From assembly GCA_949295035.1 (NCBI GenBank), contig CASFJO010000065.1, forward strand, positions 1 to 44,796: DNA of 44,796 nucleotides. Direction: 5' to 3'. A program made the translations under genes and the position numbers. This document shows positions 2,114-31,584 of the stretch, piece by piece. The number at the start of each line of letters is the position of its first letter. Positions within the stretch are counted from its first letter, which is position 1. This DNA comes from an uncultured Gemmiger sp. (GTDB taxonomy: Bacteria; Bacillota; Clostridia; Oscillospirales; Ruminococcaceae). Under the pieces are notes generated by a model, which ran no database searches, was not told the origin of the DNA, and was given only the letters and a program-made list of their open reading frames with translations.

Positions 2114-4258
2114 ATGAAAAAAGAAAGAAATGCAGAAAAACAAAACGTGAAATTCGGCATCGTTCCCAAACTGCTGCTGGGGATTTTGGTGCCCCTGTTT
2201 GCGGTGCTGATCCTCGTCAGCGTTTTTCTGGGGCTGCAGAGTTCCCAAACGGTGAACGAAGTGATGAGCGCCGAACTGGATGCGGAAACCAGATCGGCGG
2301 CTTATCAGATCGAAGCGTTTTTTGAGCGTTACTATGGCATTACCGAATCGCTGGCAGCCAGCCAGACGATACAGGATCTTATCAGCCAGACTGAGGAGGG
2401 CAGCGCCGCCACAAATGCGCTGTATGGCGAGATGCTGACCACGCTGGAAACGGTGCGGCAGGGGAATATCGAGGACATCGCCTATATTTGGGTGTCCGAT
2501 TTCCGTACCGGGGAAGTGCTGCAGAATGACGGCACGGTGTATGGTCCGGCACAGATGGACTATACCACCCGTTCCTGGTATACGCTGGTGATGGACAGCC
2601 AGAGCACCATCACAACGGAGTCGTATATCAGCGTGAATACCAATGATGTTATGATCACGGTGGCCAGCCCGGTTTTTGTCAATGGCTGGATCCAGGGCAT
2701 TGTGGGCATCGATCTCAATATGCAGCACCTTCGTCAGCTGCTGGATGAGGTCAAGGTGGGTACAAGCGGCTATATCACGATGTACGATCTGAATAGCCAG
2801 ATCATCTACCATCCGGACGATACCGTGCTCAATACAAACGCGGCGGACGCCAACTATTCGGCCAACATGCTGAATGCGATCCTGAACAAGGAAGACTCCG
2901 ACGTCATGCTTTACACCCGGGGGACCACCGAGTATTACGGCAGTACGGCGCCCATTGGTTCGGTAGGATATATGGTGCTGGGGGTCATGCCGGTGGCGGA
3001 GTACACAGCCCATACGGCTTCTATTCTGCGTATCCAGGTGATCGGAATGGTGGTATGCGGGCTGCTTCTGACCCTGGTCTGCGTATTTATCGCGTTGTCG
3101 ATCACCCGCCCGCTCAAGAGGCTGGATCGGGCTGTGGGCAGATTGGCGGATGGCGAACTGGACGTGGAAGTGGATGTCCGCGGCCGGGACGAAGTCAGCG
3201 AGGTGGGCGCCAATGTAGAGCGGATCGTGCAGCGCCTGAAAGAGTATATCCTGTACATCAATGAGATTTGGGAAGTGCTTAACCAGATCGGCGACGGCGA
3301 CCTGATGTTTACGCTGGAGCATGAGTATGCCGGCGAGTTTTCCAAGGTCAAAGAGGCGTTGCTGCATATCCGCAGCACCCTGACCGAAACGCTCACCACC
3401 ATTGCCCAGTCGGCGGATCAGGTAAACGCCGGTTCCGATCAGATCGCCAGCGGTGCGCAGGCGCTGGCCCAGGGCGCTACCGAGCAGGCGTCCTCCGTGG
3501 AGGAACTCTCCTCGGCGATCCAGGAACTGTCGGGCCAAGTTTCGGACGAGGCCGGTAAGGCGGCCGAGGCCGGCAAGTTCATGGAACAGATCAAAGAAGA
3601 AGTGGAAAAGAGCAATAAGCAGATGGAGCAGATGCGCAGCGCCATGGGGGATATCAGCACCCAGTCGGCGGCCATCCGGGGCATCATCAAAACGATCGAC
3701 GATATTGCCTTCCAGACCAATATCCTGGCGCTGAACGCCGCTGTGGAGGCCGCCCGGGCCGGCGCGGCCGGAAAAGGATTTGCCGTGGTGGCGGACGAGG
3801 TCCGCAGCCTGGCGGGCAAGAGCGCGGAAGCGGCCAAAAAGACCAACCAGCTGATCGAAAGTTCGGTCCAGGCGGTAAAGCATGGCGAAGAGCTTACCCA
3901 ATTGACGGCGGAATCGCTGGAGATCGTGGCTGACGGCACCAGGCAGGTGGTGAACACCATCGAAAGCGTGGCGGTGGCATATCGGGATCAGGCCAGCCGG
4001 ATCTCGGAGATCGCCAAAGGTGTGGATCAGATCTCCAATGTGGTGCAGACCAACTCGGCCACCGCAGAACAGAGCGCGGCCGCCAGTGAGGAACTTTCCG
4101 GCCAGGCAAGCATGATGCGTGAGCAGGTCGCGCATTTCAAGCTGGGCCAGGATGCGGGCTTTGAAGAACCGATCCGGGAACCGGAACGGTATGAGCAGCC
4201 AAAGCGGCCGCAAGCGGCGTTCAGCGGTGCGGGCGCGGGCCAGGAAGGGAAATATTGA
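2114..4258 (+). CDS. Methyl-accepting chemotaxis protein with dCache-like sensor
   Basis: A 714-residue transmembrane chemoreceptor that would signal to CheA/CheW. A short basic N terminus leads into TM1 (about residues 16-38), an extracellular sensor of about 270 residues with Cache-like features ([17 protein letters not shown]), TM2 (about 308-330, [20 protein letters not shown]), a HAMP domain ([20 protein letters not shown]) and a long cytoplasmic coiled coil. The hairpin tip [20 protein letters not shown] and [16 protein letters not shown] is the conserved CheA/CheW contact. No C-terminal NWETF-type CheR tether is present. GGAGGG precedes ATG at a proper distance. It is monocistronic: own promoter before, strong terminator after. 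No flagellar or che genes are in the window, so its output (motility or another response) and its ligand remain open. Confidence 0.95.
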
Positions 4259-10688: not shown

Positions 10689-12545
10689 TCAGCGCAGAAC
10701 AAAGAATTGTTCATACCAGAGGATGAAGCTGTAGATGCTCCAGATCTGGGTCATGGCGCCGGGCTTTGCAGTTCCGTTTTTGTGGCTGTCCAGCAGACGG
10801 ATGCAGGCCTCGGGCACAAAGAACCTGGCGCACACCTCGCCCTCGAACTTCTCCCGCACCATCCGGTAATACTTGTCCTGGCGCAGCCAGTCGTTCAGCG
10901 GCACCGGGAATCCAAGCTTCTTCCGTTTGGCCACGCTCTCGGGCAGCTGGGCCATGGCCGCGCGGCGCAGGGCGATCTTGGTCTCCTCCTTGCCGCTGCG
11001 CAGCCGCGCGGGCATGGCGGTGGCCACCTTCAGCACCTCCCGGTCCAAAAAAGGTACCCGCAGCTCCAGGCTGTTGGCCATGCTCATCCGGTCGGCCTTG
11101 AGCAGGATGTCATACAGCATCCAGGTGTGCATATCCACCCACTGCAGCTGAGTGGACTCATCCAGGTCCTGGACCTGATCGAAATAGGGCTTGAACCATT
11201 CCTCCGGCTTTTTGCTGTGGTAGTCCTTCTTCAGGTACTGATCCCGCTCGGCCGGAGTGGGAAACACATAGTTGGCCCGCATGAACCGCTGCCAGGGCTC
11301 CATGGCGCCCCGGATCGCAAAATTCTTTCCCTTGAAGGCGGGCAGACGCTTTGCCAGCGCGGCGGCCGCCTTGCGCACCGGGGCGGGCACCTTTCCGTAC
11401 TCGGCAAAATGCCAGGCCGCGCAGTACATGGGATAGCCGCCGAACAGTTCATCCGCGCCCTCGCCGCTCAGCACCACCTTCACATACTTTGCCGCGTTTT
11501 TGGTCAAAAAGTAAAGAGGCACCTCGCTGGGGTTGGGCATCGGCTCGTCCAGATACCACTGGATGGTCTTGTTGGCCTCGAAAAATTCGTCGGCGCTCAC
11601 CTTGTTGGCGATGCTGGGCACCCCGATCTCCTTGCTGAAGGCCTGGGCGTAGGGAAGTTCCGAGTACTTCTCCTCCTCGTATCCCACGCTGAACGACTTC
11701 ACATGGGGGGTACCCTTGGCCACCTCGTTTACCACAAAGCTGGAATCCACCCCGCTGGAGAGGAAACACCCCACCTCCACGTCGGCGATCTGGTGAGCGG
11801 CCACGCTCTCGGCGAAGGTGTCGGTGATCTTCTTCTGCCACTCCTCGTCGGTCAGGCTCTCGTCGGCCGCAAACCGGATGGCAAAGTACCGGCGGGTCTC
11901 CAGCTCGCCGTTCTTCCAGCGCAGCCAGTGGGCGCCGGGCAGCTTGTACACGCCCCGGAACATGGTCTCCTCATTGGGGATGTATTCGATGGACAAATAC
12001 TCCGGCAGCCGCTCCTCGTTCAGTTCCTTCACAAAACCCGGATGGGGCAGAAAGCTTTTGATCTCGCTGCCAAACAGAAAGTTCCCGCCCTCGTTGTAGT
12101 AATAATAGGGCTTGATGCCGAAGATGTCCCGGGCGCCGAACAGCGTCTCGTTCTTCTTGTCCCAGAGCATAAAGGCGAACATACCCCGCAGTTTGCCGGG
12201 CAGCTCTTCGCCCCACTGCTCGTAGCCGTGCAGCAGCACCTCGGTGTCTGACCGGGTGGAGAAAACGTGGCCCGCCGCCTCCAGTTCGGCGCGCAGAGCC
12301 TGAAAGTTGTAGATCTCCCCGTTGAAGACAACGACCAGGCTGCCATCCTCGTTGAACATGGGCTGCCTGCCGCCCTCAAGATCGATGATGGACAGCCGCC
12401 GGTGGCCCAGCGCCACCCGCTCATCCACATAAAAGCCCTCGCCGTCCGGGCCCCGATGGGCGATCTGCTCGCCCATCGCCCGGATGGTGGCCAGAGCCTG
12501 TTCCCGCTCCAGTTTTGCCGCGGCAAAACCTACGAATCCGCACAT
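10689..12545 (-). CDS. asnB: Asparagine synthase (glutamine-hydrolysing), copy 1
   Basis: A 618-residue cytoplasmic amidotransferase that adenylates an aspartyl-type carboxylate and amidates it with ammonia from glutamine. The N-terminal glutaminase starts with the required Cys2 (MCGFVGF) and continues RGPDGEGFY, LGHRRLSIIDL, FNGEIYNF and DTEVLLHGYEQWG. The synthetase half has the PP-loop SSGVDSSF, then LSGEGADELFGGY. ATG 12545 is fixed by Cys2 and by GGAGGAAAG upstream. It is 17 bases after the ATP-grasp gene and so co-transcribed. Free asparagine is the default product. The partnership with an ATP-grasp ligase beside murE makes a peptidoglycan-amidating role (as for AsnH, which makes D-Asn cross-bridges) a real alternative. 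Confidence 0.9.
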   Translation of the reverse strand: MCGFVGFAAAKLEREQALATIRAMGEQIAHRGPDGEGFYVDERVALGHRRLSIIDLEGGRQPMFNEDGSLVVVFNGEIYNFQALRAELEAAGHVFSTRSDTEVLLHGYEQWGEELPGKLRGMFAFMLWDKKNETLFGARDIFGIKPYYYYNEGGNFLFGSEIKSFLPHPGFVKELNEERLPEYLSIEYIPNEETMFRGVYKLPGAHWLRWKNGELETRRYFAIRFAADESLTDEEWQKKITDTFAESVAAHQIADVEVGCFLSSGVDSSFVVNEVAKGTPHVKSFSVGYEEEKYSELPYAQAFSKEIGVPSIANKVSADEFFEANKTIQWYLDEPMPNPSEVPLYFLTKNAAKYVKVVLSGEGADELFGGYPMYCAAWHFAEYGKVPAPVRKAAAALAKRLPAFKGKNFAIRGAMEPWQRFMRANYVFPTPAERDQYLKKDYHSKKPEEWFKPYFDQVQDLDESTQLQWVDMHTWMLYDILLKADRMSMANSLELRVPFLDREVLKVATAMPARLRSGKEETKIALRRAAMAQLPESVAKRKKLGFPVPLNDWLRQDKYYRMVREKFEGEVCARFFVPEACIRLLDSHKNGTAKPGAMTQIWSIYSFILWYEQFFVLR

Positions 12546-12562
12546 ACGCCTTTCCTCCGCTC

Positions 12563-13792
12563 TCAGTCTTTCAGGCTCTTGTTGCCGAAATACCGCTTGT
12601 ACTTGCGGTAGTTGTTCAGCTGGTTCTTGATATACCAGACGCCCCGCCGCAGGCTGAAATCCTCCCTGCAGAACAACTGGTGACTGGCTTTGCGCGCCCG
12701 GATCAGCGCCTCGGCCTGGGCCAGAAGGTCCTTGTCCTTCAGGTACCGGCGCAGGATGCCCGCCGGGGCGATCATCCACAGGCTCTGGGCGTCGGCGATG
12801 GTCAGTTCGGCGGGCTTGTGCAGCACCACGTCCTCCACCAGCCATTTGGCCAGGTTGTAGCCGCTGGCGGTCACAAAGAAGCTGCTGCGTCCCTGCCGGG
12901 GGTTCATCTCAAACATCTTGTACTGGCCGTCCCGCGCGTCGTACTTCATGTCAAAATTGGAAAAGCCCTCCCAGCCCACATCTTCCAGGAAAGCCTTCAT
13001 ACGGCCCATAAGTTCCTCGTCCTTCACCGACAGGATGGCCGCGTAGTTGCCGATCCCCTCCGGGGTCTGTTCCTCCAGCAGAGGCCGGCCCAGCGCCATC
13101 AGACGCACCTTGTGATCCAGGCCGGAGTAGCAGTTCAGCACCCGCATCTGGCAGTCCTCGCCGGGGATGTACTCCTGCAGCACCAGGCTGTCCTGGTAGC
13201 TGGAGGAGTAGATGGCCGCCACGATCTCCTCAAACTCCTGCCGGCTGTTCGCGATGAACACCTTCTTTTTGTGGGGGAAACGGCAGTTCCAGTAGGCCAC
13301 GCTGTTAGATGCCTTGATGATGCAGGGAAAATCAAACGGCAGCTGCACCGTGCGCCAGTTTTCGGCGGTGCAGCCAAAGGTGCGGGGGTAGGCGATACCA
13401 TGCGCCTCGCAAGCCTTGTAGAAGTTCTCCTTCATGTCCAGCTGCTCCCACAGTTCGGGGGTGGGGCAGGCGAAATGGTACAGCCCTTCCAGGGCGGCCC
13501 GGTTGCGGGCCATCAGGCCGGTGTAGTTGTCGCCGCAGCTTACCAGTACCCGGGTGGTGTTGGGATGGTCGGCGGCAAAGCGCTGCAGCACCGTCACAAA
13601 CACCTCGTCCTCTTCCAGGCGGGGTTCCACCACCGCGATCTTCACCAGCCTGGAGTTGGCGGTGGCGGCCAGCGCCCCCTTGCCGATGGCCAGGCTGGTC
13701 ACCCCGTATTCCATATAAAAGCTGCGCGCCATACCGTATACGTTGGCGTCGCTGCCCAATAATACCGGCAGCAGATTCGTCAGCTGTTCCAT
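12563..13792 (-). CDS. ATP-grasp carboxylate-amine ligase, D-aspartate ligase candidate
   Basis: A 409-residue ATP-grasp enzyme, not membrane-bound, expected to activate a carboxylate as acyl phosphate and join it to an amine. The N-terminal part (about 1-120) is Rossmann-like. Then come ATP-grasp elements: FPCIIKASNS (Lys binding ATP), LVLQEYIPGED (adenine-binding strand), FSNFDMKYDARDG and FEMNPRQGRSS (Mg/ATP-binding Glu and Asn), and a basic C terminus. The motif pattern is the one I recall for the 'carboxylate-amine ligase' group that includes D-aspartate ligase Aslfm of Enterococcus faecium; this needs an alignment. It heads the leftward operon with asnB-1 and is divergent from asnB-2/murE. 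A role adding an acidic amino acid to a peptidoglycan precursor is the best contextual guess. Confidence 0.8.
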   Translation of the reverse strand: MEQLTNLLPVLLGSDANVYGMARSFYMEYGVTSLAIGKGALAATANSRLVKIAVVEPRLEEDEVFVTVLQRFAADHPNTTRVLVSCGDNYTGLMARNRAALEGLYHFACPTPELWEQLDMKENFYKACEAHGIAYPRTFGCTAENWRTVQLPFDFPCIIKASNSVAYWNCRFPHKKKVFIANSRQEFEEIVAAIYSSSYQDSLVLQEYIPGEDCQMRVLNCYSGLDHKVRLMALGRPLLEEQTPEGIGNYAAILSVKDEELMGRMKAFLEDVGWEGFSNFDMKYDARDGQYKMFEMNPRQGRSSFFVTASGYNLAKWLVEDVVLHKPAELTIADAQSLWMIAPAGILRRYLKDKDLLAQAEALIRARKASHQLFCREDFSLRRGVWYIKNQLNNYRKYKRYFGNKSLKD

Positions 13793-13897
13793 AGTTCCAT
13801 GCCTCGATTCCCGCGCACATAGCGCGTGTTATACTGCACAGGTCATGCGATACTTTATTGTACTTCCACGGCAGCGGTATGTCAATGAAAAAGCCCT

Positions 13898-13925
13898 TTT
13901 ACTGCCGCTGTTTTCGTAGTATAAT
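13898..13925 (+). promoter_or_regulatory. Promoter of the asnB-2/murE operon
   Basis: TTTACT (13898-13903), 16-base spacer and TATAAT (13920-13925), about 80 bases before the AsnB start. No T-box antiterminator core was found in the leader. Confidence 0.5.
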
Positions 13926-14006
13926 AAAAACATCTTGTGCGCAAAACGCACAGGCAAACGGGGGCGGGGCAGATGCAAGCCGCCCCGCGGGAAAGGAAAC
14001 AATGCC

Positions 14007-15836
14007 ATGTGTGGGATCACAGGTTTTACCAGTAAACGGGCCGACAAGGCTGAGGTGCTCGCCGCCATGATGGAGGCTATCGCACACCGCGGGCCGGACG
14101 GCGCGGGCCAGTATATCGACGGGCAGGTGGCGCTGGGCCACCGACGGCTGTCCATCATTGATCCGGAGGGCGGCAAGCAGCCCATGTTCAATGAGGACGG
14201 AAGCCTGGTCGTCGTTTTCAACGGGGAGATCTACAATTTTGCGGCGCTTCGGCAAGAACTGCAGGATGCCGGCCATACCTTCGCCAGCGACCACTCGGAC
14301 ACCGAGGTGCTGCTGCACGGGTATGAAGAATGGGGCCGGGAACTGGTCACCCGGCTGCGGGGGATGTTCGCGTTTGCGATTTGGGACAAGAACGCGGGCA
14401 GGCTGTTCTGCGCGCGGGATCATTTCGGTATCAAGCCCTTTTATTATTACCACAAGGGCGACTGCTTTATGTTCGGCAGCGAGATCAAGAGCTTTTTGCC
14501 CAATCCCGAGTTTGACAAACGGTTCAACCCCGCGCAGCTGCAGCTGTATCTGAGTTTTCAGTATTCTCCCGGGGAGGATACCTTTTTCCAGGATGTGAAG
14601 AAGCTGCTGCCGGCCCATTGGCTGGAATGGCAGGACGGTACGGTCACGGCGCAGCGGTACTGGTCGCCCTCTTTTGACGCGGACGAGACCCGCACCCTGG
14701 AGGACTGGGAAAACGACATCGAGGCCGCCATGAAGGAGAGCGTGGCCGCCCACAAGATCGCCGATGTGGAGGTAGGCAGTTTTCTTTCCAGCGGGGTGGA
14801 CTCCAGCTATATGGCCTGCCTGGCCCATGTGGACAAGACCTTTACCGTGGGCTTTGCCGAGGCGCAGTACGACGAGACCCACTATGCCCAGGAGTTCAGC
14901 AAGCACATCGGGGTCAAAAACTTTGCTTACCGCATCACCCCGGAAGAATACTGGGCCAACCTGTCCAGGATCCAGTACCACATGGACGAGCCCCTGGCCG
15001 ACGCGGCCAGCGCGGCGCTGTATTTCGTCAACCGGGAGGCCGCCAAACAGGTCAAGGTCTGCCTGTCCGGCGAGGGGGCGGACGAGTTCTTCGGCGGTTA
15101 CAACATTTACAAGGAGCCGTTTACCGTAAGCTGGTACGACCATCTGCCGCTGCCCTTGCGCCGGGCCATCGGCGCGGTGGCGGAAAAGCTGCCGCCGGTG
15201 CGGGGGCTGAACTTTCTGGTGCGCCGCGGCCGCCCGCTGGAAGAGCGGTACATCGGCAACACCGACCTGATGGGGGAGCGGCGCAAAAAGCAGCTGCTGC
15301 GCCATTATATCCCCGGCGTGCTGCCCACCGATCTGTCCCGCCCGCTGTTTGACAAGACCAAAGGGCAGGATCCGGTCACCCGGATGCAGTTTACCGATTT
15401 GCAGCTGTGGATGGTGGGAGACATTCTGCTGAAAGCGGACAAGATGAGCATGGCCAACAGCCTGGAGCTGCGGGTGCCTTTCCTGGACCGGAAGGTGTTC
15501 GAGCTGGCACGCCGTATCCCGGTGCGCTACCGGGCCGACGCCCACAACACCAAGATCGCCATGCGCCGGGCCGCCCAGCGCAGCATCCCGCCCCAGACCG
15601 CCGACAAAAAGAAGCTGGGCTTCCCGGTGCCGGTGCGCGCCTGGCTGCGGGATGAGAAGTACGCCGCCGTGGTGCGCGAGGCCTTCCACACCGAGGCCGC
15701 CCGGCAGTTCTTCTACACCGACGCGCTGGACAAGATGCTGGATCAGCACCTGTCCGGCAAGCGGGATAACTGGCGGCAGATCTGGTGCGTGTTTGTATTT
15801 CTGGTATGGTACGACGAATATTTTGTAAAGCGGTAA
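14007..15836 (+). CDS. asnB: Asparagine synthase (glutamine-hydrolysing), copy 2
   Basis: A 609-residue paralogue of the enzyme encoded at 10689-12545, with the same layout. The glutaminase domain opens MCGITGF (Cys2) and has RGPDGAGQY, LGHRRLSIIDP, FNGEIYNF and DTEVLLHGYEEWG. The synthetase domain has FLSSGVDSSY (PP-loop) and LSGEGADEFFGGY. GAAAGGA precedes ATG 14007; the first Cys fixes the start. It is 31 bases from murE in the same direction and almost surely co-transcribed. The two copies are clearly homologous end to end but far from identical, so this is an old duplication or two separate acquisitions, and the two may have different acceptors. One could make asparagine while the other amidates a cell-wall precursor. 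Confidence 0.9.
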   Translation: MCGITGFTSKRADKAEVLAAMMEAIAHRGPDGAGQYIDGQVALGHRRLSIIDPEGGKQPMFNEDGSLVVVFNGEIYNFAALRQELQDAGHTFASDHSDTEVLLHGYEEWGRELVTRLRGMFAFAIWDKNAGRLFCARDHFGIKPFYYYHKGDCFMFGSEIKSFLPNPEFDKRFNPAQLQLYLSFQYSPGEDTFFQDVKKLLPAHWLEWQDGTVTAQRYWSPSFDADETRTLEDWENDIEAAMKESVAAHKIADVEVGSFLSSGVDSSYMACLAHVDKTFTVGFAEAQYDETHYAQEFSKHIGVKNFAYRITPEEYWANLSRIQYHMDEPLADAASAALYFVNREAAKQVKVCLSGEGADEFFGGYNIYKEPFTVSWYDHLPLPLRRAIGAVAEKLPPVRGLNFLVRRGRPLEERYIGNTDLMGERRKKQLLRHYIPGVLPTDLSRPLFDKTKGQDPVTRMQFTDLQLWMVGDILLKADKMSMANSLELRVPFLDRKVFELARRIPVRYRADAHNTKIAMRRAAQRSIPPQTADKKKLGFPVPVRAWLRDEKYAAVVREAFHTEAARQFFYTDALDKMLDQHLSGKRDNWRQIWCVFVFLVWYDEYFVKR

Positions 15837-15867
15837 AGAACCGCAAACCAAAAACGGAGGAAACGCC

Positions 15868-17346
15868 ATGCTGCTGAAAGATCTTCTGAACGGAGTGGAA
15901 CACACCCTGGTGCAGGGCACGGCCGACCGGGAGGTGGCCGACGTGGTCTACGATACCCGCCGCCTTGTGCCCGGCGCGCTGCTCGTCTGCATTGTGGGCA
16001 CCAGCCGGGACAGCCACGACCTGGCCGCCGACGCGGTGGCCGCCGGGGCGGGGGTGCTGGTGATCCAGCACGACATCCCGCTGCCGGGCCCCGGGGTCAC
16101 GGTGGTGCGGGTGGATTCCAGCCGGCGGGCGCTGGCGCTGCTCAGCGCCAATTATTTCGGGCACCCCGCCCGGGAGATGACCATGATCGGCGTCACCGGC
16201 ACCAAGGGCAAGACCACCACCGCCCACATGGTGCGGTCGGTACTGCTGGCGGCCGGGCGCCGCTGCGGCATCATCGGCACCAACGGCGTGGCCTACGGAG
16301 ATGTGCGGCAGGAGCTGGCCAACACCACCCCCGAAAGTTATGAACTGCAAAAGATGTTCCGGGCCATGCGCAGCGCGGGCTGCGACAGTGTGGTCATGGA
16401 GGTGTCCAGCCAGGGGGTCATGATGGACCGGGTCACCGGTATCGAGTTTGATGTGGGGGTATTCACCAACCTGTACCACGACCATATCGGAGGCCCCGGC
16501 GAACACGCCACCTTTGAGGAATACCGGTACTGGAAGGGTCAGCTGTTCCGGCGGTGCAAGCTGGGCATCGTCAACGCGGACGACCCCAACACCGAAGCTC
16601 TGCTGGAGGGCCATACCTGCCGCCTTGTCACCTACGGCATGCACAACCCCGCCGACTACCGGGCCGATCACCTGCAGCTGCTGCGGGCGGAGAACTTCCT
16701 GGGTATCACCTTCCACGTCACCGGCAGGGAAGAGATGCAGGTCAAGGTGAACATGCCCGGCGAGTTCAGCGTCTACAACGCGCTGGCGGCCATCGCGGTG
16801 GGCCGGGAACTGGGCCTGCCCCACGACGCCATCCACAATGGCCTGACCGATATCGCGGTCAAAGGCCGGGTGGAGATGGTGCCCATCAGCAAGGACTTCA
16901 CCATCCTGATCGACTTTGCCCACAACGAGGCAGGCACCGAGAGCCTGCTGTCCACCCTGCGGGCCTACAAGCCTCACCGGCTGGTCTGCCTGTTCGGCTG
17001 CGGCGGCAACCGGTCCAAGCTGCGCCGGTACGGCATGGGCAAGGTGGCCAGCGAGATGGCGGATCTCCTTATCCTCACCGAGGACAACAACCGGTTTGAG
17101 AAGGTGGAGGACATCATCGCCGATATCCGGCAGGGCATTGCCCAGGGCAATCCTGATGTGCCCACGGTGGAGATTCATGACCGGCTGGACGCGATCCACT
17201 ACGCCATCGACCATGCCCAGCCAGGCGATTTGATCTGTGTGATCGGCAAGGGCCACGAGACCTATCGGGACAGGAATGGGGTCAAGACCCCCTTCCTGGA
17301 GCGGGAGCTCATTGAGGATTATGCCCGTCAGACCGGCCTGATCTGA
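15868..17346 (+). CDS. murE: UDP-MurNAc-tripeptide ligase (MurE-type)
   Basis: A 492-residue cytoplasmic Mur ligase that adds the third residue to UDP-MurNAc-L-Ala-D-Glu. The N-terminal UDP-binding domain (VADVVYDTRRLVPGAL) is followed by the ATPase P-loop GVTGTKGKTTTAHM (about 107-120), TPESYELQ, EVSSQGVMMDR, FTNLYHDHI (catalytic region) and NADDPN. The C-terminal domain has DFAHNEAGTESLL and GCGGNRSKLR. Where the amino-acid selecting loop is usually DNPR in meso-DAP enzymes, this protein has DNNR (residues 406-409), followed by FEKVED. Amino-acid specificity (DAP, Lys or Orn) is therefore not safe to assume. GGAGGAA precedes ATG 15868. It could also be a MurE paralogue outside the main pathway, since murF, murD, murG and mraY are not here. 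Confidence 0.85.
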   Translation: MLLKDLLNGVEHTLVQGTADREVADVVYDTRRLVPGALLVCIVGTSRDSHDLAADAVAAGAGVLVIQHDIPLPGPGVTVVRVDSSRRALALLSANYFGHPAREMTMIGVTGTKGKTTTAHMVRSVLLAAGRRCGIIGTNGVAYGDVRQELANTTPESYELQKMFRAMRSAGCDSVVMEVSSQGVMMDRVTGIEFDVGVFTNLYHDHIGGPGEHATFEEYRYWKGQLFRRCKLGIVNADDPNTEALLEGHTCRLVTYGMHNPADYRADHLQLLRAENFLGITFHVTGREEMQVKVNMPGEFSVYNALAAIAVGRELGLPHDAIHNGLTDIAVKGRVEMVPISKDFTILIDFAHNEAGTESLLSTLRAYKPHRLVCLFGCGGNRSKLRRYGMGKVASEMADLLILTEDNNRFEKVEDIIADIRQGIAQGNPDVPTVEIHDRLDAIHYAIDHAQPGDLICVIGKGHETYRDRNGVKTPFLERELIEDYARQTGLI

Positions 17347-17416: not shown

Positions 17417-19687
17417 ATGCCGTTTTTTCACCGCCGTGCCGCCCGTCCGCCCAAAAGGCCACGACCGGCCCCGCCGCCGCCCGCCACCGCCGGCCAGTCC
17501 GCCGGCATGCGGCTGCGGGTGCGGCTGCTGGCGGGGGCCATGGCCCTGACCGTGGCGGGGGTGCTGCTGGCGCGCCTGGCCTGGCTGCAACTGGCCGATT
17601 CCACCTTTTATGCCGCCCGTGCCGCCCGCCAGCAGATGCGCTCCGCCACGGTGCCCGCGCCCCGGGGAGATATCTACGCGGCCGACGGTACTCTGCTGGC
17701 AGGCAGCGTGACTTGCTGGACCATCCGGGCGGTGCCCCGGGAGATGCAGGAGGAACTGCTGGACGCGGCGGCCGCCGATCTGGCCGCTCTCCTGAATGAG
17801 GACGCGGATTCGTTTGCCCAAAAGTTTGCCGACCGCAAGAGCAACGACGCGCTGCTGGCCCGCCGGGTAGACCGGGAGACCGCCGACGCGGTACGGGACT
17901 ATTGCGAATCCACCGGCCTGTCCGGCATCCGCATCCAGCAGGATACAAAGCGTCTGTATCCGGAAGGGGATTTTGCCGCCAGTATCCTGGGCTTCACCAA
18001 TGTGGACGGGGACGGCCTGGCCGGGCTGGAACTGGAGTATAATGAGACCCTTACCGGCGTTGCGGGCAGTGTGCTCACCGCCCGCAACGCCTGGGGGTAT
18101 GATCTGGAACAGGCCGAAAGCCTTTACCAGGCGCCGGTACAGGGCAACAGCCTGACACTGACGATCGACGCCAACATCCAGCACTATCTGGAACAGCACC
18201 TGAGCTACGCGGTGCAGGAGCACAACGTCTCCGCCCGGGCGGTGGGCATCGTCATGGACGTGAACACCGGGGCCATTCTGGCAATGGCCACCAAGCCCGA
18301 TTACGACCCCAATCAACCCCGCCTGATCGCCGACGAGGCCACCCGCGCGGCGGTGGACGCGCTGACCGGGGAAGAGCGCGCCGCTGCTTTGCAGCTGGCC
18401 CAGCAGACCCAGTGGCGCAACAAGGCGGTAAGCGATCTGTACGAACCGGGCTCGGTGTTCAAACTCATCACCGCCTCCGCCGCGCTGGATTGCGGCGCGG
18501 TGCAGCCGCTGACCCAGTTTACCTGCGGCAAGTCCTACAAGGTGGCCGGCATCGCGTTCCACTGCGCCAACAACAAGGCCCACGGCCTGCTCACCGTGCA
18601 GCAGGCGGTGGCCCAGTCCTGCAACCAATCCCTGATCCAGATCGGGCAGCTGTTGGGCAAGGAGCGGTTTTATCAGTATTTTGAGGCCTATGGCCTGACC
18701 GGCGCCACCGGCATTGACCTGCCCGCCGAGCCCGCCCGCAGCGAGTATTACACACCGGACCGCATGGGCCCGGTGGAACTGGCCAGCTGTTCTTTCGGTC
18801 AGTCCAGCAAGATCACCCCGATCCAGATGATCACGGCGGTGGCGGCGGTGGTCAACGGCGGCAAACTCATGCAGCCCTACGTGGTGGCCAAGGTCACCGA
18901 CGCGGCGGGCAATACGGTCAGCGAGACCCGGCCCCAGGTGCGCCGCCAGGTCATCAGCGAACAAACCAGCGCCGCCATGCGGGAGATCCTGGAACTCACT
19001 GTGCTGGAGGGCGGCGGAAAAAACGCTTATGTGGCCGGTTATCGGGTGGGGGGCAAGTCCGGAACCAGCCAGAAGCTGGACTCCGAGGACGAAAAGGCCC
19101 GTATCGCCAGCTTTGTGGGGGTGGCCCCGATTGACGACCCGCAGATCGCGGTGCTGATCTGCCTGGACGAACCCCACAGCTTTACCACCGCCGGCGGCAG
19201 CCTGTCCGCCCCGGTGGTGGCCCAGGTCATTGAGGACACCCTGTCCTATTGGGGCGTGCCTCGGGTCTATACCCAGGAGGAGCTGGACGCCATGCAGACC
19301 GCCGTGCCAAACCTGACCGGCTCCGCGCCGGACAAAGCGCTGGAGCGGCTGGCCAACAATGGCCTCGCCGGCAAGGTGGTGGGGGAGGGGGACGCGGTGC
19401 TGCGTCAGTATCCGGAGGCGGGCCAGTCCTTGCCCCGCGGTTCCACTGTGCTGCTCTATACCAGCGACGCGGCGCCTCTCTCGGTCACAGTGCCGTCGCT
19501 GGCCGGGCAAAGCTATGACCAGGCGGCGGCGGCCCTGCGGGCCGCCGGGCTCAATCTGTGCGCGGAGGGCCCCGCCTGGTCGGAGGGCGCGGTAGCGGTG
19601 TCCCAAAGCCTGAGCGAGGGGCAGAGCGTGCCGATGGGCAGCGTGGTCACCGCCCGGTTCTGCGATTATTCCGGTGTGGAGGATTAG
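17417..19687 (+). CDS. ftsI: Class B penicillin-binding protein with two PASTA domains (FtsI/SpoVD type)
   Basis: A 756-residue D,D-transpeptidase that cross-links septal or spore peptidoglycan outside the membrane. The N terminus is short, Pro- and Arg-rich (1-33), followed by one membrane helix (about 37-57), then a dimerisation domain (RGDIYAADGTLLA). The transpeptidase domain carries SVFK (Ser346-Lys349), SCN (401-403) and KSGT (547-550). Two PASTA repeats end the protein (VPNLTGSAPDKALERLANNG and VPSLAGQSYDQAAAALRAAG). PASTA tails are typical of Firmicutes division PBPs and of SpoVD. It precedes ftsW by 59 bases; the two products normally work as a pair. The only Shine-Dalgarno sequence lies inside a hairpin. 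Confidence 0.92.
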   Translation: MPFFHRRAARPPKRPRPAPPPPATAGQSAGMRLRVRLLAGAMALTVAGVLLARLAWLQLADSTFYAARAARQQMRSATVPAPRGDIYAADGTLLAGSVTCWTIRAVPREMQEELLDAAAADLAALLNEDADSFAQKFADRKSNDALLARRVDRETADAVRDYCESTGLSGIRIQQDTKRLYPEGDFAASILGFTNVDGDGLAGLELEYNETLTGVAGSVLTARNAWGYDLEQAESLYQAPVQGNSLTLTIDANIQHYLEQHLSYAVQEHNVSARAVGIVMDVNTGAILAMATKPDYDPNQPRLIADEATRAAVDALTGEERAAALQLAQQTQWRNKAVSDLYEPGSVFKLITASAALDCGAVQPLTQFTCGKSYKVAGIAFHCANNKAHGLLTVQQAVAQSCNQSLIQIGQLLGKERFYQYFEAYGLTGATGIDLPAEPARSEYYTPDRMGPVELASCSFGQSSKITPIQMITAVAAVVNGGKLMQPYVVAKVTDAAGNTVSETRPQVRRQVISEQTSAAMREILELTVLEGGGKNAYVAGYRVGGKSGTSQKLDSEDEKARIASFVGVAPIDDPQIAVLICLDEPHSFTTAGGSLSAPVVAQVIEDTLSYWGVPRVYTQEELDAMQTAVPNLTGSAPDKALERLANNGLAGKVVGEGDAVLRQYPEAGQSLPRGSTVLLYTSDAAPLSVTVPSLAGQSYDQAAAALRAAGLNLCAEGPAWSEGAVAVSQSLSEGQSVPMGSVVTARFCDYSGVED

Positions 19688-19746
19688 TTGCCGGTCCTTC
19701 TGCGCACACTGATACGGGGCCCCGCGCCCCAAGGAGGATGCCTGCC

Positions 19747-20892
19747 ATGCGTCTGCGTTCACTCAAGGCCCGAATATTTCCGGCCGGGCTGCCGGGGATG
19801 GATCTGCCCTTTTTTCTGCTGGTGCTCACCCTGCTGTGTTTTGGTCTGGTCATGCTCTACAGCGCCAGCTGCGCGGTGGGCCAGTACCGGTTCAACGATC
19901 CCTATACCTATATCCGGCCCCAACTGCTCTTTACGGCGGTGGGGCTGGCCGCTCTCTTTGTAGCCAGCCGGCTGGACTATCATATCCTGCATGCCTGGGC
20001 CTGGCCACTGTTCGGCATATCGCTGGTGCTGCTGATAGTGGTGCTCTTCATGCCGGAATACAACGGCTGCCGCCGCTGGATCGTGATCCCGGGGCTGGGC
20101 ACGCTGCAGCCCAGCGAGATCGCCAAGTTCTCGGTGATCGTGCTCTTCAGCCATATCATCTCGCTGAACCATCCCCGCATGAAAAGCTTTACCGTGGGAG
20201 TGCTGCCGTTTGCGCTGATTCTGGGGGCGGTCACGGTGCTCATGCTGTTGGAGCCGCATCTGTCCGGCACCCTGCTGATCCTGGCCATCGGGGCGGTGCT
20301 CATGTTTGTAGGCGGCACCGGGCTGCGCTGGTTTGCGCTGGCGGGAGGCGGAGCGCTGGCGGCGCTGGCCGGCGCGCTGATTCTGCTGCCGGATCTGGTG
20401 CCGTACGCCGCCAGCCGCCTGTCCAGCTGGCTGGACCCTTTTGCCGACCCGCTGGGCGCGGGCCACCAGACCATCCAGAGCCTGTATGCCATCGGCTCAG
20501 GCGGCGCGCTGGGCCTGGGGCTGGGCAACAGCCGCCAGAAACATCTCTATGTGCCTGAGCCTCAGAACGATTTTATCTTCTCCATCCTCTGTGAGGAACT
20601 GGGCTTTGTGGGGGCGGCGCTGGTGATCCTGCTCTTTGTGCTGCTGCTTACCCGGGGGCTCGTTATCGCGCTGCGGGCTGCCGATAAATTCGGCGCGCTG
20701 CTCACGGTGGGCTTTACGGTGCAGGTGGTGCTGCAGGCCGCCCTCAACATGGCGGTGGTCACCAATACCATCCCCAATACCGGTATCAGCCTGCCGTTCT
20801 TTTCCTCCGGGGGCACCAGCCTGATGATGCTGCTGGGGGAGATGGGTCTGGTACTTTCGGTGGCGCGTCAGGGAGAGCAGCCAGGCGGATAA
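19747..20892 (+). CDS. ftsW: SEDS-family glycosyltransferase (FtsW/SpoVE/RodA)
   Basis: A polytopic membrane protein of 381 residues with about ten helices, polymerising lipid II glycan strands together with the class B PBP encoded just upstream. Family marks are MLYSASCAVG near the first helix, NGCRRWI and QPSEIAKFSVI (catalytic loop region), LLEPHLSGTLLI, QNDFIFSILCEELGFVGA and NTGISLPFFSSGGTSL towards the end. Two in-frame ATGs are close: 19738 abuts AAGGAGG directly, while 19747 lies 9 bases after it, so 19747 is chosen. Placement between the PBP and MurA/FtsZ genes favours FtsW or SpoVE over the elongation paralogue RodA. Confidence 0.93.
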   Translation: MRLRSLKARIFPAGLPGMDLPFFLLVLTLLCFGLVMLYSASCAVGQYRFNDPYTYIRPQLLFTAVGLAALFVASRLDYHILHAWAWPLFGISLVLLIVVLFMPEYNGCRRWIVIPGLGTLQPSEIAKFSVIVLFSHIISLNHPRMKSFTVGVLPFALILGAVTVLMLLEPHLSGTLLILAIGAVLMFVGGTGLRWFALAGGGALAALAGALILLPDLVPYAASRLSSWLDPFADPLGAGHQTIQSLYAIGSGGALGLGLGNSRQKHLYVPEPQNDFIFSILCEELGFVGAALVILLFVLLLTRGLVIALRAADKFGALLTVGFTVQVVLQAALNMAVVTNTIPNTGISLPFFSSGGTSLMMLLGEMGLVLSVARQGEQPGG

Positions 20893-20976: not shown

Positions 20977-22245
20977 GTGGGGGAGATCTTGCGGGTATGG
21001 GGCGGCAGACCTCTGGAGGGCGCGGTGCGCCTGCCCAGCGCCAAAAACAGCGTATTGCCGATCCTGGCGGCGGCGGTGCTGGCTGACGGGCCGGTGGTGC
21101 TGCGGGATGTGCCGGATTTGGCCGACGTGCGGGCCAGCGTGTCCATTCTCCGGGCGTTGGGCCTTACGGTGCGCCGCCGGGGCGAAGATCTGCATCTGCT
21201 TCCCGCCGCTGTGCCGGGCTGGCAGCTGCCGGAGGCGCCGGCCCGGGCCATGCGCAGTTCGGTGTTTTATCTGGCGCCGGTCCTGCACCGGGCGGGGCGT
21301 GTGCGGATGCCGCTTCCCGGCGGCTGCAAGCTGGGCCCCCGCCCCATCGACATCCATCTGGATGGGCTGTGCCGTATGGGGGCGCAAGCCGCCTGCGGGG
21401 AAGACTGGCTGGAACTGACCGCGCCGGCCCGCCTGCGGGGAATGGACTATACACTCCGTCTGCCCAGTGTGGGCGCTACCGAGACGCTTTTGATGGCGGC
21501 GGCGCTGGCCCAAGGGGATACCGTCCTCCGCAACGCGGCCCGCGAGCCGGAGGTCCGGGACCTGGCGGCTTTTCTCAACGGCTGCGGCGCGCGGATCGAG
21601 GGCGCGGGGAGCCCGGTGATCCGGGTGCAGGGAAAAACCGCGCTGCATGGCGCCCGCCACCGGCCCATTCCCGATCGGATCGTAGCGGCCACAGTGGCCG
21701 CTGCGGTGGCGGGCTGCGGAGGCTGTGTGACCCTGCTTGGGACCGGGGAAGACCCGCTTGGCCCGGTGGCCGGCGTGCTGGAGCGGGCAGGCTGCCATAC
21801 CGACCGCCCGGCGCCGGAATGCTGGCGGGTGCAGCGCCAGGATGACCTGCAGGGAGTGGGACTGGTGCGCACCGGGGTATGGCCGGGCTTTTCCACCGAC
21901 GCGGCCCCGGTGGTGGCGGGCGGCCTGTTGGCGGCCCGGGGGGATACCGTTCTGGAGGATACGGTATTTGAGGACCGGTTCGCCTGCGCCGAGGGCTTTG
22001 CGCTGCTGGGCGGGCAGGTCTGCCGCCGGGGCCGTGTGCTGGCGGTGCATGGCCCGGCCCGGCTGGCCGGCGCCCGGGTGCGCGCGTGCGATCTGCGGGG
22101 CGGCGCCGGCCTGGCGGTAGCGGCGCTCACCGCCGCCGGGGCAAGTGTGATCGAAGGCGCGGAGTACATCCGCAGGGGCTATGCCGATCTGGCCGGCCTG
22201 TTCCGGGGTCTCGGCGCGCAGCTTCAGGCCGCGCCGCAAGGCTGA
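20977..22245 (+). CDS. murA: UDP-GlcNAc 1-carboxyvinyltransferase (MurA)
   Basis: A 422-residue cytoplasmic enzyme transferring enolpyruvate from PEP to UDP-GlcNAc, the first committed step of peptidoglycan synthesis. Markers are SAKNSVLPILAA (Lys/Asn pair, usually KNAALP), PGGCKLGPRPID with catalytic Cys117 (the fosfomycin target), SVGATETLLMAAALA, PEVRDLAAFLNGCGA, GFSTD with the catalytic Asp, and ACDLRGGAGLAVAAL near the end. The internal repeat of the EPSP-synthase fold is evident. The start is GTG at 20977 after GGGGGCGG. It is somewhat diverged from textbook MurA and could be a second, division-linked copy as many Firmicutes have. It lies 84 bases from ftsW, and a terminator follows. 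Confidence 0.9.
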   Translation: MGEILRVWGGRPLEGAVRLPSAKNSVLPILAAAVLADGPVVLRDVPDLADVRASVSILRALGLTVRRRGEDLHLLPAAVPGWQLPEAPARAMRSSVFYLAPVLHRAGRVRMPLPGGCKLGPRPIDIHLDGLCRMGAQAACGEDWLELTAPARLRGMDYTLRLPSVGATETLLMAAALAQGDTVLRNAAREPEVRDLAAFLNGCGARIEGAGSPVIRVQGKTALHGARHRPIPDRIVAATVAAAVAGCGGCVTLLGTGEDPLGPVAGVLERAGCHTDRPAPECWRVQRQDDLQGVGLVRTGVWPGFSTDAAPVVAGGLLAARGDTVLEDTVFEDRFACAEGFALLGGQVCRRGRVLAVHGPARLAGARVRACDLRGGAGLAVAALTAAGASVIEGAEYIRRGYADLAGLFRGLGAQLQAAPQG

Positions 22246-22638: not shown

Positions 22639-23781
22639 ATGAGCTTCATTCTTGACGAAGAGGTGCAGGGCATCACCAACATCAAGGTTATTGGTGTGGG
22701 CGGCGGCGGCGGCAACGCGGTCAACCGCATGGTGCAGGGCGGCATGCAGGGCGTTGAGTTCATCGTCATGAATACCGATCAGCAGGCGCTGATGAGCAAT
22801 AAAGCCACCCAAAAGGTCCAGCTGGGGGCCAAACTCACCCGCGGCCGCGGCGCGGGCGCCGATCCCGAGGTGGGGCAGCGTGCCGCCGAGGAGAGCAAGG
22901 ACGAGATCGCCGCGGCGCTCAAGGGCGCGCAGATGGCCTTTATCACTGCCGGTATGGGAGGCGGCACCGGTACCGGCGCGGCCCCCATCGTGGCGCAGAT
23001 CGCTCATGACCTGGGGATCCTGACGGTGGGCATCGTCACCAAGCCGTTCGCGTTTGAGGGCCGCCGCAAGATGGTCCTGGCGGAGCAGGGCATTGCCGGG
23101 CTGCTCATGCATGTAGACAGCCTGATCGTGATCCCCAACGAGCGCCTGAAACTCATCAGCGAGGAAAAGATCACCCTGATGAACGCGTTTGAAGCGGCGG
23201 ACAATGTGCTGCGCCAGGGCGTGGAGAGCATCTCGAACCTGATCAACGTGCCGGCCTTCATCAACCTGGATTTTGCCGACGTGCGCAGCGTTATGAAGGA
23301 CGCGGGCTACGCCCACATGGGCGTGGGCCGGGCCAAAGGCGCCAACAAGGCGGAGAACGCCGCCAAGGCGGCCATCTCCAGCCCGCTGCTGGAGACCAGC
23401 ATCTCCGGCGCCCGGGGCGTCATCATCAACTTTACCTCTTCCGCCGACATCGCCATGGAGGAGGTGGAACAGGCCGCCAGCCTGATCACCAAGTCCGCGC
23501 ATCCCGATGCGAACATCATCTGGGGTATCGCGTTTGACGATCAGCTGAACGACGAGATGAGCATTACCGTGGTGGCCACCGGCTTTGAGAGCGTGCCGGA
23601 GCAGACCGCCGCCAACGAGGCGCAGGCGGCCGGCGCTACCGGTTATGTGCAAACGCCCCGCGCGGTGTTCTCCAGCGACGGCACGGCGGCTGCCGCGTCT
23701 CCCGCCCCGGCCCCGAACGAAAAGGACGACGATGACAATTATTTTGGCCAGATCCTGGACATCATCAACAACCGGCACTGA
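22639..23781 (+). CDS. ftsZ: Cell division protein FtsZ
   Basis: A 380-residue tubulin-like GTPase that forms the Z ring. The N terminus IKVIGVGGGGGNAVNRM binds nucleotide; GMGGGTGTGAAP (about residue 110) is the tubulin signature; NVDFADVRSVM-type T7-loop residues appear as NLDFADVRSVMKDAG. The globular core ends near residue 315. A linker of about 45 residues rich in Ala/Pro follows, then an acidic run and the C-terminal sequence DDDDNYFGQILDIINNRH. That tail keeps a hydrophobic helix with a basic end but lacks the usual D-I-P-x-F-L-R core that binds FtsA, SepF or ZapA-type partners. AGGGGGA precedes ATG. The coiled-coil gene follows by 30 bases, probably in one operon. Confidence 0.96.
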   Translation: MSFILDEEVQGITNIKVIGVGGGGGNAVNRMVQGGMQGVEFIVMNTDQQALMSNKATQKVQLGAKLTRGRGAGADPEVGQRAAEESKDEIAAALKGAQMAFITAGMGGGTGTGAAPIVAQIAHDLGILTVGIVTKPFAFEGRRKMVLAEQGIAGLLMHVDSLIVIPNERLKLISEEKITLMNAFEAADNVLRQGVESISNLINVPAFINLDFADVRSVMKDAGYAHMGVGRAKGANKAENAAKAAISSPLLETSISGARGVIINFTSSADIAMEEVEQAASLITKSAHPDANIIWGIAFDDQLNDEMSITVVATGFESVPEQTAANEAQAAGATGYVQTPRAVFSSDGTAAAASPAPAPNEKDDDDNYFGQILDIINNRH

Positions 23782-27594: not shown

Positions 27595-27671
27595 CCGGGC
27601 CCGTGCGCCGCGCCGACCCGCAAGCCGGGGCGGCGCGGCATCGCCCTGTCGGGCAGCAAGGAGCGCTAGGA

Positions 27672-29540
27672 ATGTATACAGAATTTTTGCCCATCAGCCG
27701 CCAGGAGATGGAGAACCGCGGCTGGGATGCGGTGGACTATGTGCTGGTAACAGGCGACGCCTACGTGGACCATCCCAGTTTCGGCGCGGCCATCATCGGC
27801 CGGGTGCTGGAGGCCGAAGGCTTTCGGGTGGGGGTGCTCAGCCAGCCGGATTTTACTACCTGCGAAAGTTTCCGGGAGTTTGGCCGCCCCCGCTACGGCT
27901 TTTTTATCGGCGGCGGCAACGTGGACAGTATGGTGGCCCACTATTCGGTGGCCAAGGTGCGCCGGGCCGAGGACGAATACACCCCCGGCGGCCGGGCGGG
28001 CCGCCGCCCTGACCGAAGCGCCACCGTCTACAGCCGGCTGGCCAAACAGGCCTATCCCGACCTGCCGGTGATCCTGGGCGGTCTGGAAGCCTCTCTGCGC
28101 CGGTTCGCCCACTACGACTACTGGATGGACGAGGTGCTGCCCAGCATCGCCGAGACCTCCGGCGCGGACCTGATCTCCTTCGGCATGGGGGAACACCAGA
28201 CCCGCACCATTGCCCGCCGCCTGGCGGCGGGGGAGCCGGTGGAGAGCATCCGGGACGTGGCCGGCACCTGCTATCTGACCGACTTTGCCGGTCTGCCGGA
28301 AACCTACGTGGAGTGCGCGGGCTTCAACAAGGTCAAGGCCGACAAGGTGGCCTATGCCCGGGCCTGCCGCATCCAGATGGACAACCAGGACCCGGTCTCC
28401 GGCCAGATCGTGGTGCAGAAGCAGAGCGAAAAATATCTGGTGCAGAATATCCCTTCCAAACCCCTGACCCGCCGGGAACTGGACGAGGTGGCGGCGCTGC
28501 CCTTCACCCGCCGGTATCATCCCGGCTATGACGCGCTGGGCGGGGTGCCCGCCATCGAGGAGGTGGAGTTCTCCATCATCCATAACCGGGGCTGCTACGG
28601 CGGGTGCAACTTCTGCGCCATCACCCTGCACCAGGGCCGTCGGGTCACCAGCCGCAGCGCCGACAGTGTGGTGGCGGAAGGGGAGCGTATTGCCCAAAGT
28701 CCCGGCTTTAAGGGATATATCCACGATGTGGGCGGCCCCACCGCCAACTTCCGCCTGCCCAGCTGCGCCAAGCAGATGCGGGAGGGGATGTGCCAGGGCG
28801 GCAAGAAATGCCTGGCCCCCGGCCCCTGCCCCCACCTGATCGTGGACCACAGCGAGTATCTGGGCATCCTGCGCCGGCTGCGGGCCATCCCCGGGGTGAA
28901 GAAGGTGTTCATCCGCAGCGGTATCCGGTACGACTATCTGATCCGGGACAAGGATGAGAGCTTCTTCAAGGAACTGGTGCGGCATCATATCTCGGGCCAG
29001 CTCAAGGTGGCGCCGGAGCATTGTGCCCCCACCACCCTGGCTTATATGGGCAAACCGCCCATTGAGACCTATAACAAGTTTTCCAAACGGTTCTATGAAC
29101 TCACCAAACAGGCTGGCAAGCAGCAGTATCTGGTGCCCTATCTGATGAGCAGCCACCCCGGCAGCACGCTCAAGGACGCGGTGATCCTGGCAGAGTATCT
29201 GTACCGCAACCATATCCGGCCGGAGCAGGTGCAGGATTTCTATCCAACCCCCGGCACCGTCTCCACCTGTATGTTCTATACCGGCCTGGACCCCTATACC
29301 CTGAAGCCGGTGTTTGTGGAAAAGACCCCCGAAGGCAAAGCGTTGCAGCGGGCGCTGCTGCAATACTATGAGCCCCGCAACGCCGCCCGGGTAATCAAAG
29401 CGCTGAAACTGACCCACCGGGAGGATCTGATCCCCCTGCTGGTACCGGCTTCGGCCCGCCGAAAGGAAACGAAACCATGGCAAAGCGAAAAACGTTCCGC
29501 CGCCCCCGCGGCAAAGCGGCGCAGCGGCAAGCGGCGCTGA
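27672..29540 (+). CDS. ygiQ: YgiQ-family radical SAM protein (UPF0313)
   Basis: A 622-residue soluble enzyme of unknown reaction. An N-terminal UPF0313 domain (MYTEFLPISRQEMENRGWD, VDYVLVTGDAYVDHPSFG) has a B12-binding-like fold. The radical SAM core has the cluster motif Cys308-x3-Cys312-x2-Cys315 (GCYGGCNFC), and the C-terminal DUF3362 part has FYPTPGTVSTCMFYTG and a basic tail. A further Cys-rich segment (CQGGKKCLAPGPCPH) may hold a second metal site. ATG 27672 follows AAGGAG by 8 bases. The 3' end overlaps the next gene by 64 bases, so the two are translationally coupled. It heads a six-gene operon ending in metH; whether it takes part in one-carbon chemistry is unknown. Confidence 0.92.
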   Translation: MYTEFLPISRQEMENRGWDAVDYVLVTGDAYVDHPSFGAAIIGRVLEAEGFRVGVLSQPDFTTCESFREFGRPRYGFFIGGGNVDSMVAHYSVAKVRRAEDEYTPGGRAGRRPDRSATVYSRLAKQAYPDLPVILGGLEASLRRFAHYDYWMDEVLPSIAETSGADLISFGMGEHQTRTIARRLAAGEPVESIRDVAGTCYLTDFAGLPETYVECAGFNKVKADKVAYARACRIQMDNQDPVSGQIVVQKQSEKYLVQNIPSKPLTRRELDEVAALPFTRRYHPGYDALGGVPAIEEVEFSIIHNRGCYGGCNFCAITLHQGRRVTSRSADSVVAEGERIAQSPGFKGYIHDVGGPTANFRLPSCAKQMREGMCQGGKKCLAPGPCPHLIVDHSEYLGILRRLRAIPGVKKVFIRSGIRYDYLIRDKDESFFKELVRHHISGQLKVAPEHCAPTTLAYMGKPPIETYNKFSKRFYELTKQAGKQQYLVPYLMSSHPGSTLKDAVILAEYLYRNHIRPEQVQDFYPTPGTVSTCMFYTGLDPYTLKPVFVEKTPEGKALQRALLQYYEPRNAARVIKALKLTHREDLIPLLVPASARRKETKPWQSEKRSAAPAAKRRSGKRR

Positions 29541-30702: not shown

Positions 30703-30705
30703 CCC

Positions 30706-31572: not shown

Positions 31573-31584
31573 AAGGAGCCACCC

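Follow-up and report, generated by a model that had tools for sequence, protein, structure and literature searches.

What does an ATP-grasp carboxylate-amine ligase do between two AsnB-type amidotransferases, beside murE and upstream of a division cluster? The question is raised by a contig of an uncultured Gemmiger sp. (assembly GCA_949295035.1, contig CASFJO010000065.1), analysed over a stretch of 44,796 nucleotides, hereafter the window; the locus under study covers positions 10689-17346 together with the division block downstream. A sequence-only reading had proposed a cell-wall cross-bridge module of the kind known from Enterococcus faecium and Lactococcus lactis. Our analysis makes it probable that the locus encodes a system for an amidated cross-bridge of D-aspartate (D-Asp) or a kindred D-residue. 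The ligase, the racemase and AsnB all belong to a pathway that is already known; what is unusual here is the lineage, an ancient second AsnB, and the tie of this AsnB2 to a divergent MurE. The genes are arranged as follows.

10689..12545, minus strand: AsnB1, a glutamine-dependent amidotransferase of 618 amino acids (TIGR01536, 504 bits; PF00733 and PF13537; N-terminal MCG).
12563..13792, minus strand: the ATP-grasp carboxylate-amine ligase (homology, AlphaFold2 model, Foldseek and invariant residues).
13793..14006, no strand: the divergent intergenic region of 214 bases, with two back-to-back sigma-70-like promoters.
14007..15836, plus strand: AsnB2, the second amidotransferase, of 609 amino acids (TIGR01536, 503 bits; MCG start inside the open reading frame 13935-15836).
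15868..17346, plus strand: MurE of a divergent subfamily, adding stem residue 3 (NF001126, 458.9 bits against a cut-off of 373; TIGR01085).

The open reading frame listed for AsnB1 spans 10689-12845, and its start was trimmed to 12545 at the MCG of the glutaminase domain. Open reading frames and family profiles confirmed the places first given to these genes and to the penicillin-binding protein (PBP), FtsW, MurA and FtsZ genes that follow them.

In Pfam and NCBIfam the ligase scores below all curated cut-offs (in Pfam, 19.6 at best for a cut-off of 19.8), so its ATP-grasp label needed further proof, which was supplied by an AlphaFold2 model (mean predicted local distance difference test score 92.4) and by Foldseek. 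The structural search returned the ATP-grasp fold, with L-amino-acid ligases and PylC among the 50 matches listed, all of which we take from their names to be ATP-grasp enzymes. The residues K160, E295, N297 and R299, presumably the nucleotide and metal ligands, are invariant across 28 aligned sequences. A sequence search of the PDB gave carbamoyl-phosphate synthetase at E 1.6e-4 and otherwise chance-level matches. In plasmid records, tblastn found relatives with 37-38% identity over 96-97% of the ligase in Limosilactobacillus fermentum, Subdoligranulum variabile, Lactobacillus crispatus and Latilactobacillus curvatus, the last two of which are D-Asp-bridge species. The lactobacillal proteins are annotated "carboxylate-amine ligases", with the L. 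curvatus match reaching 286 bits; other matches among 20 of the 62 records were a haloarchaeal protein (28% over 80%) and Priestia 'carbamoyl-phosphate synthase' proteins (28-30% over 75%). The wall of L. fermentum is tabulated as A4beta L-Orn-D-Asp (PMC6024572), Lysinibacillus is described as a genus with Lys-Asp peptidoglycan (PMC6971209), and D-Asp or D-Asn bridges are described for L. lactis and most lactobacilli (PMC4155827).

A scan of named genomes with the ligase confirmed at least 587 relatives, of which 80 loci were kept; the neighbourhood counts below refer to those 80. Of these, 51 or 52 belong to Clostridia, often from gut samples, and 28 or 29 to Planococcaceae and related bacteria, whose ligases (48-51% identity to that of the window; 48-50% in Lysinibacillus) are the nearest named relatives outside Clostridia in this set. 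The ligase of Gemmiger sp. An120 is 96% identical. In the ligase tree, the window groups with Fournierella and Gemmiger (Shimodaira-Hasegawa-like approximate likelihood ratio test 95-100) and then with other Oscillospirales (95), although the root is unsure because the single Priestia outgroup has a very long branch, and the tree is no separate proof. Sampling of the family gave a strong match in 33 of 197 genomes, including the window's own (36 matched at E 0.001, and 3 weak ones were excluded), so that the prediction covers many species. The protein is a full-length homologue of the lactobacillal and Lysinibacillus enzymes; from its fold, conserved residues and similarity to ligases of D-Asp-bridge species, we propose that it is an Aslfm/AslA-like D-Asp (or D-Glu) ligase.

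Gene neighbourhoods point the same way. An aspartate-type racemase lies within 3 kb of the ligase in 49 of the 80 kept loci and an AsnB in 46, both being present in 27. Ligase-racemase is the most frequent order (22 loci), followed by murE-AsnB2 divergent from ligase-AsnB1 (14 loci, hereafter Gemmiger-type, 12 whole and 2 in which the contig end truncates a gene), ligase-racemase-AsnB1 (13, of which 2 are cut), AsnB2-ligase-racemase-AsnB1 (11, of which 2 have a cut or split gene), ligase-AsnB1 (4), AsnB2-ligase-racemase (3) and AsnB2-ligase-AsnB1 (1). Conservation across relatives had been suggested as a check, and the recurrence of the divergent arrangement in 14 of 80 loci shows that it is not due to chance. 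Among the Clostridia, AsnB lies within 3 kb in 43 of 51 loci and the racemase in 25 of 51 (this total leaves out L116, placed with Paenisporosarcina in the ligase tree). In the Planococcaceae, 23 of 28 loci carry a racemase next to the ligase, 3 of 28 have AsnB within 3 kb, and none of the 28 has murE within 6 kb.

Twenty further loci from the family genomes gave AsnB beside the ligase in 18, an aspartate/glutamate-type racemase in 13 (PF01177 was found in six real racemases scanned from these loci) and the ligase alone in one; the six loci of the window's clade have no racemase. In the close relative L073 (ligase 71% identical), the 6 kb that precede the ligase contain neither AsnB2 nor murE, and the contig ends just after the ligase. 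In L. curvatus the ligase gene is flanked by a racemase and an aspartate transaminase, and in L. crispatus it directly follows asnB; no racemase or asnB is annotated beside the ligase of L. fermentum, in a gene table said to be incomplete. From these orders we infer that the ancestral arrangement may have been AsnB2-ligase-racemase-AsnB1, and that in the Gemmiger type AsnB2 would have flipped to join murE while the racemase left the locus.

AsnB1 and AsnB2 share 51% identity and fall in two old clades, each with Acutalibacteraceae and Oscillospiraceae sequences, AsnB1 among the 'downstream' AsnBs. On this evidence they are an ancient paralogue pair. The description of the amidotransferases as duplicated therefore holds for their number, whereas a recent duplication is rejected by the trees and the identity. 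AsnB1 has the traits expected of an AsnH-type enzyme: it is a long AsnB with an N-terminal cysteine, linked to the ligase, and among the sequences compared it groups with AsnBs of bridge-forming organisms.

Both proteins score over the cut-off of TIGR01536, an asparagine synthase model, and asparaginyl-tRNA synthetase is present, so that free asparagine is needed; one or both could then be ordinary asparagine synthetases, with the ligase making an unrelated small molecule. We consider this very improbable. The asnA gene is over cut-off twice in the window's own genome, so neither AsnB is needed for asparagine, and every one of the 12 Gemmiger-type ligase genomes in a search of 21 has at least one copy; despite the tRNA synthetase, asparagine synthesis was rejected as the job of the AsnBs. 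The conserved position beside murE also argues against this explanation, and the other ATP-grasp group met, the Priestia carbamoyl-phosphate synthase-like proteins, is only about 30% identical across some three quarters of the ligase. The window's own genome has another two short PF00733 matches, which lie just over the cut-off (25.6 and 21.3 against 21 bits).

The two halves of the locus are separable. In two relatives that lack a ligase match, G012 (99% complete) and G018 (97%), AsnB2 (77% and 73% identical, respectively) lies directly upstream of MurE, and the stretches fetched from these genomes contain no ligase, racemase or separate AsnB1, although in G012 AsnB2 stands at the contig edge and the region beyond is unseen. 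Because the pair is kept without the ligase, AsnB2 seems to have a job independent of the bridge. The idea of a cross-bridge module is supported by homology and by the 27 loci with both racemase and AsnB, but AsnB2 stands beside murE even in these two genomes, where the ligase is missing. The G012 contig (C19, L223) repeats its own sequence in inverted orientation, which is most likely due to misassembly, and its two MurE matches are one gene. In another phylum, Collinsella aerofaciens shows the same pairing as AsnB2-MurE: asnB is directly followed by a divergent murE with the motif EDPA (L225:5001-8555, NZ_OY725717.1), and murI lies two genes on.

Several observations on the ligase, on the racemase and on stem residue 3 weigh against a D-Asp bridge. 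The ligase was placed through its lactobacillal and Lysinibacillus homologues, and AsnB1 likewise through homologues, rather than through the biochemically proven Aslfm, AslA and AsnH. Twelve of the 80 kept loci, five of them from Lysinibacillus, have the ligase with neither racemase nor AsnB nearby. Moreover, none of the 14 Gemmiger-type loci contains the racemase, a count made on the loci only, and MurI could supply D-Glu instead. The same machinery would then build a bridge of D-Glu, or D-Gln once amidated. Planococcus and Planomicrobium, which have Lys-D-Glu wall types, carry relatives of the ligase. In addition, A4alpha muropeptides with glutamate/glutamine bridges are reported as about as abundant as A1gamma in sacculi from the mouse gut (PMC11382707). 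This review was the one relevant paper among the results listed for wall data from the mouse gut.

The window's own genome nevertheless encodes an aspartate-type racemase elsewhere, between the arginyl- and methionyl-tRNA synthetase genes of contig C37 (L055; TIGR00035, 181 bits against a cut-off of 93.1). It shares 65% identity with the racemase encoded in the ligase cluster of S. variabile, and the other PF01177 gene nearby is MurI. Since its score also exceeds the threshold of the cysteate racemase model NF052483 (197.7 against 190), its family name is no proof of substrate; by profile match it is a putative genome-encoded source of D-Asp away from the ligase locus. Ligase and AsnB are at the locus, while the racemase is found elsewhere in the genome. 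L. fermentum and Lysinibacillus, in which the ligase has relatives, have Asp-bridge walls, and the Planococcus and Planomicrobium loci do have a racemase beside the ligase, so that its absence is no mark of D-Glu. We regard D-Asp as the most likely bridge residue and D-Glu as its main rival, albeit an unlikely one.

The identity of the acceptor depends on MurE. Five Mur-ligase-type matches were found in the assembly, four of which best match MurF, MurD, MurC and FolC, leaving one MurE. The MurE enzymes of Escherichia coli and Mycobacterium tuberculosis carry the motif DNPR, in which Asn and Arg hold the far carboxyl of meso-diaminopimelic acid (mDAP), and that of Staphylococcus aureus carries DNPA; the paper on the S. 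aureus enzyme describes the motif as not the sole determinant of specificity (PMC3829189). The window MurE has neither of the two motifs but DNNR in place of DNPR, as does every readable Gemmiger-type MurE, with or without the ligase (24 sequences, 21 from ligase loci and 3 from two ligase-free genomes, some genomes being counted twice; the MurE sequences of G110 and L069, cut before the motif, were left out). DNNR keeps the Asn and Arg of the mDAP motif, and these retained residues lean to DAP, while the placement of this MurE leans to a non-DAP residue 3. In the MurE tree it belongs to a subfamily (100/99) with the Anaeromassilibacillus MurE (DNSR), two paralogues with DNPG and DNPA, and the Collinsella EDPA protein, which sits on a very long branch. 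The DNPG and DNPA paralogues come from two ligase genomes (G036 and G010; L173, L174, L190 and L189) that also have a DNPR MurE, a state resembling that of Lysinibacillus sphaericus, with one DDPR and one DNPR MurE. Lysinibacillus and its kin have a DDPR MurE, the closest of theirs to that of the window, plus DNPR, DSPR or DDLN paralogues.

At the threshold used, 14 of the 20 ligase genomes examined have a single MurE, with DNPR, which is unlike what a simple Lys-type wall would show, and Faecalibacterium is reported to contain mDAP in whole-cell hydrolysates (PMC8166934). The genus mates G008 and G127 have dapB, with a lysA-like gene under cut-off (271-273 against 297.9 bits), whereas in the window's own genome (91.8% complete) dapB was not found and lysA matched at only 43 bits. 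Two very small ligase genomes (G068 and G087, 0.7-0.9 Mb; loci L051 and L049), both among the 14 with a single DNPR MurE, gave no dapB or lysA match but keep AsnB, ligase and racemase side by side. They suggest that a DNPR MurE can accompany a non-DAP wall, although DAP import is also possible; their wall diamino acid may be imported or made otherwise. L-Lys, L-Orn and mDAP are all possible candidates for residue 3. In the literature searched, no statement was found on the wall chemotype of Gemmiger, Fournierella, Anaeromassilibacillus or Collinsella, nor any muropeptide data for the Gemmiger-Fournierella group; the table of a 2024 review lists mDAP for Faecalibacterium and has no entry for Oscillibacter or the listed Ruminococcaceae genera (PMC11382707).

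These data also bear on a plain mDAP wall, in which AsnB2 would amidate mDAP and the D-Asp added by the ligase would only decorate side chains or be confined to one growth phase. The Asn and Arg kept by MurE, the mDAP reported for Faecalibacterium and the persistence of AsnB2-MurE in the two ligase-free relatives speak for such a wall. The Listeria AsnB is described as amidating mDAP (PMC8554201); with five other Bacilli sequences it forms one clade (100/100) that contains neither AsnB1 nor AsnB2. On midpoint rooting, both fall opposite that clade, with the AsnBs of Planococcaceae, L. curvatus, L. crispatus and Collinsella. Descent of AsnB2 from a Listeria-type mDAP amidase is thus not supported, and the presence of DNPA, DNPG and EDPA members in the MurE subfamily also speaks against this explanation, which we judge quite unlikely. 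A combination of mDAP with the bridge has somewhat more in its favour, though it is still doubtful: residue 3 would be mDAP bearing an amidated D-Asp bridge, AsnB2 amidating the stem diamino acid and AsnB1 the bridge. An mDAP-D-Asp (A4gamma-like) wall is known from a few Actinobacteria. If present here, it would be new as a wall type among gut Bacillota, and it could extend to the 14 ligase-bearing relatives whose only MurE found carries DNPR.

For the amidated D-Asp bridge that we favor, the following route can be proposed. MurE would add a diamino acid at stem position 3. The ligase would activate a D-dicarboxylic amino acid, most likely D-Asp supplied by the racemase of contig C37, as an acyl phosphate, and would couple it to residue 3 through the free amine of the side chain. 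AsnB1 would then amidate the free carboxyl of the bridge residue, converting D-Asp to D-Asn as AsnH does in Lactococcus, while AsnB2, presumably cotranscribed with murE, may amidate a different carboxyl of the same precursor. Finally, PBPs would cross-link the strands by joining D-Ala4 in one of them to the bridge residue in another.

Only 17 bases separate the ligase from AsnB1 and 31 separate AsnB2 from MurE, and GGAGGAAA precedes the starts of both AsnB1 and MurE; from these short gaps and this shared element, ligase-AsnB1 and AsnB2-murE are likely to form two divergent operons. Outward sigma-70-like promoters, identified by consensus match only, lie at 13885-13857 on the minus strand (11/12) and 13898-13925 on the plus strand (10/12); the scan of 401 bases found these 2 against a mean of 0.5 in shuffles. 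The division block continues downstream on the plus strand.

17417..19687, plus strand: PASTA-bearing class B PBP of the SpoVD/FtsI type (PF00905, PF03793).
19558..20892 (open reading frame as listed), plus strand: protein of the FtsW/RodA/SpoVE family (PF01098).
20977..22245, plus strand: MurA-type protein of the 5-enolpyruvylshikimate-3-phosphate synthase family (PF00275).
22639..23781, plus strand: FtsZ (PF00091, PF12327).

The PBP scores 546.7 bits on TIGR02214, below the cut-off of 688. The open reading frame of the FtsW-family protein overlaps that of the PBP, so its true start is probably further down. Elsewhere in the window, positions 2114-4258 encode a methyl-accepting chemotaxis protein with dCache and HAMP domains. 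After FtsK, positions 27603-34591 encode in a row a radical S-adenosylmethionine protein (PF08497), a metallo-beta-lactamase-fold protein, methylenetetrahydrofolate reductase, a protein just under the cut-off for the methionine synthase activation domain, and a B12-dependent methionine synthase.

The wall type decides how the host views these bacteria (NOD1 versus NOD2 ligands), which endolysins are effective and how wall synthesis is blocked. We found no paper describing such a bridge system in the Gemmiger-Fournierella group within the open-licence literature, in agreement with the original view that it is not usually described in this lineage. Cultured strains are within reach of the prediction, namely Fournierella massiliensis DSM 100451 and Gemmiger sp. 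An120, and the ligase-free relatives that keep AsnB2-MurE offer a natural contrast for the role of the second amidase.

Compared with known systems, the ligase shares its fold with PylC (TM-scores of 0.52/0.60 in Foldseek), a D-ornithine-to-lysine isopeptide ligase that forms its bond on a lysine amine and takes free lysine as substrate, but the two are only 11-12% identical. The AsnBs of Listeria, Bacillus and Lactiplantibacillus plantarum are described as amidating mDAP (PMC8554201, PMC4155827); those of the window are likewise long glutamine-dependent enzymes that would act on wall precursors, but both lie outside the clade of the Listeria enzyme, which was the one of the three that was compared. 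Lysinibacillus and other Planococcaceae have a similar ligase (48-51% identity among the 80 kept loci), but theirs is mostly linked to a racemase, rarely has an AsnB nearby and never has murE within 6 kb, and their closest MurE carries DDPR. The nearest parallel is the L. lactis AslA-RacD-AsnH and E. faecium Aslfm pathway, described as building an L-Lys-D-Asp/D-Asn bridge (PMC4155827). The Gemmiger-type locus resembles it in its ATP-grasp ligase, in the racemase that stands beside the ligase in many relatives and in an AsnB-type enzyme as the likely bridge amidase; it differs in that the racemase of the window's genome is encoded elsewhere, that two AsnB paralogues are present and that the genes are joined to murE in a division cluster.

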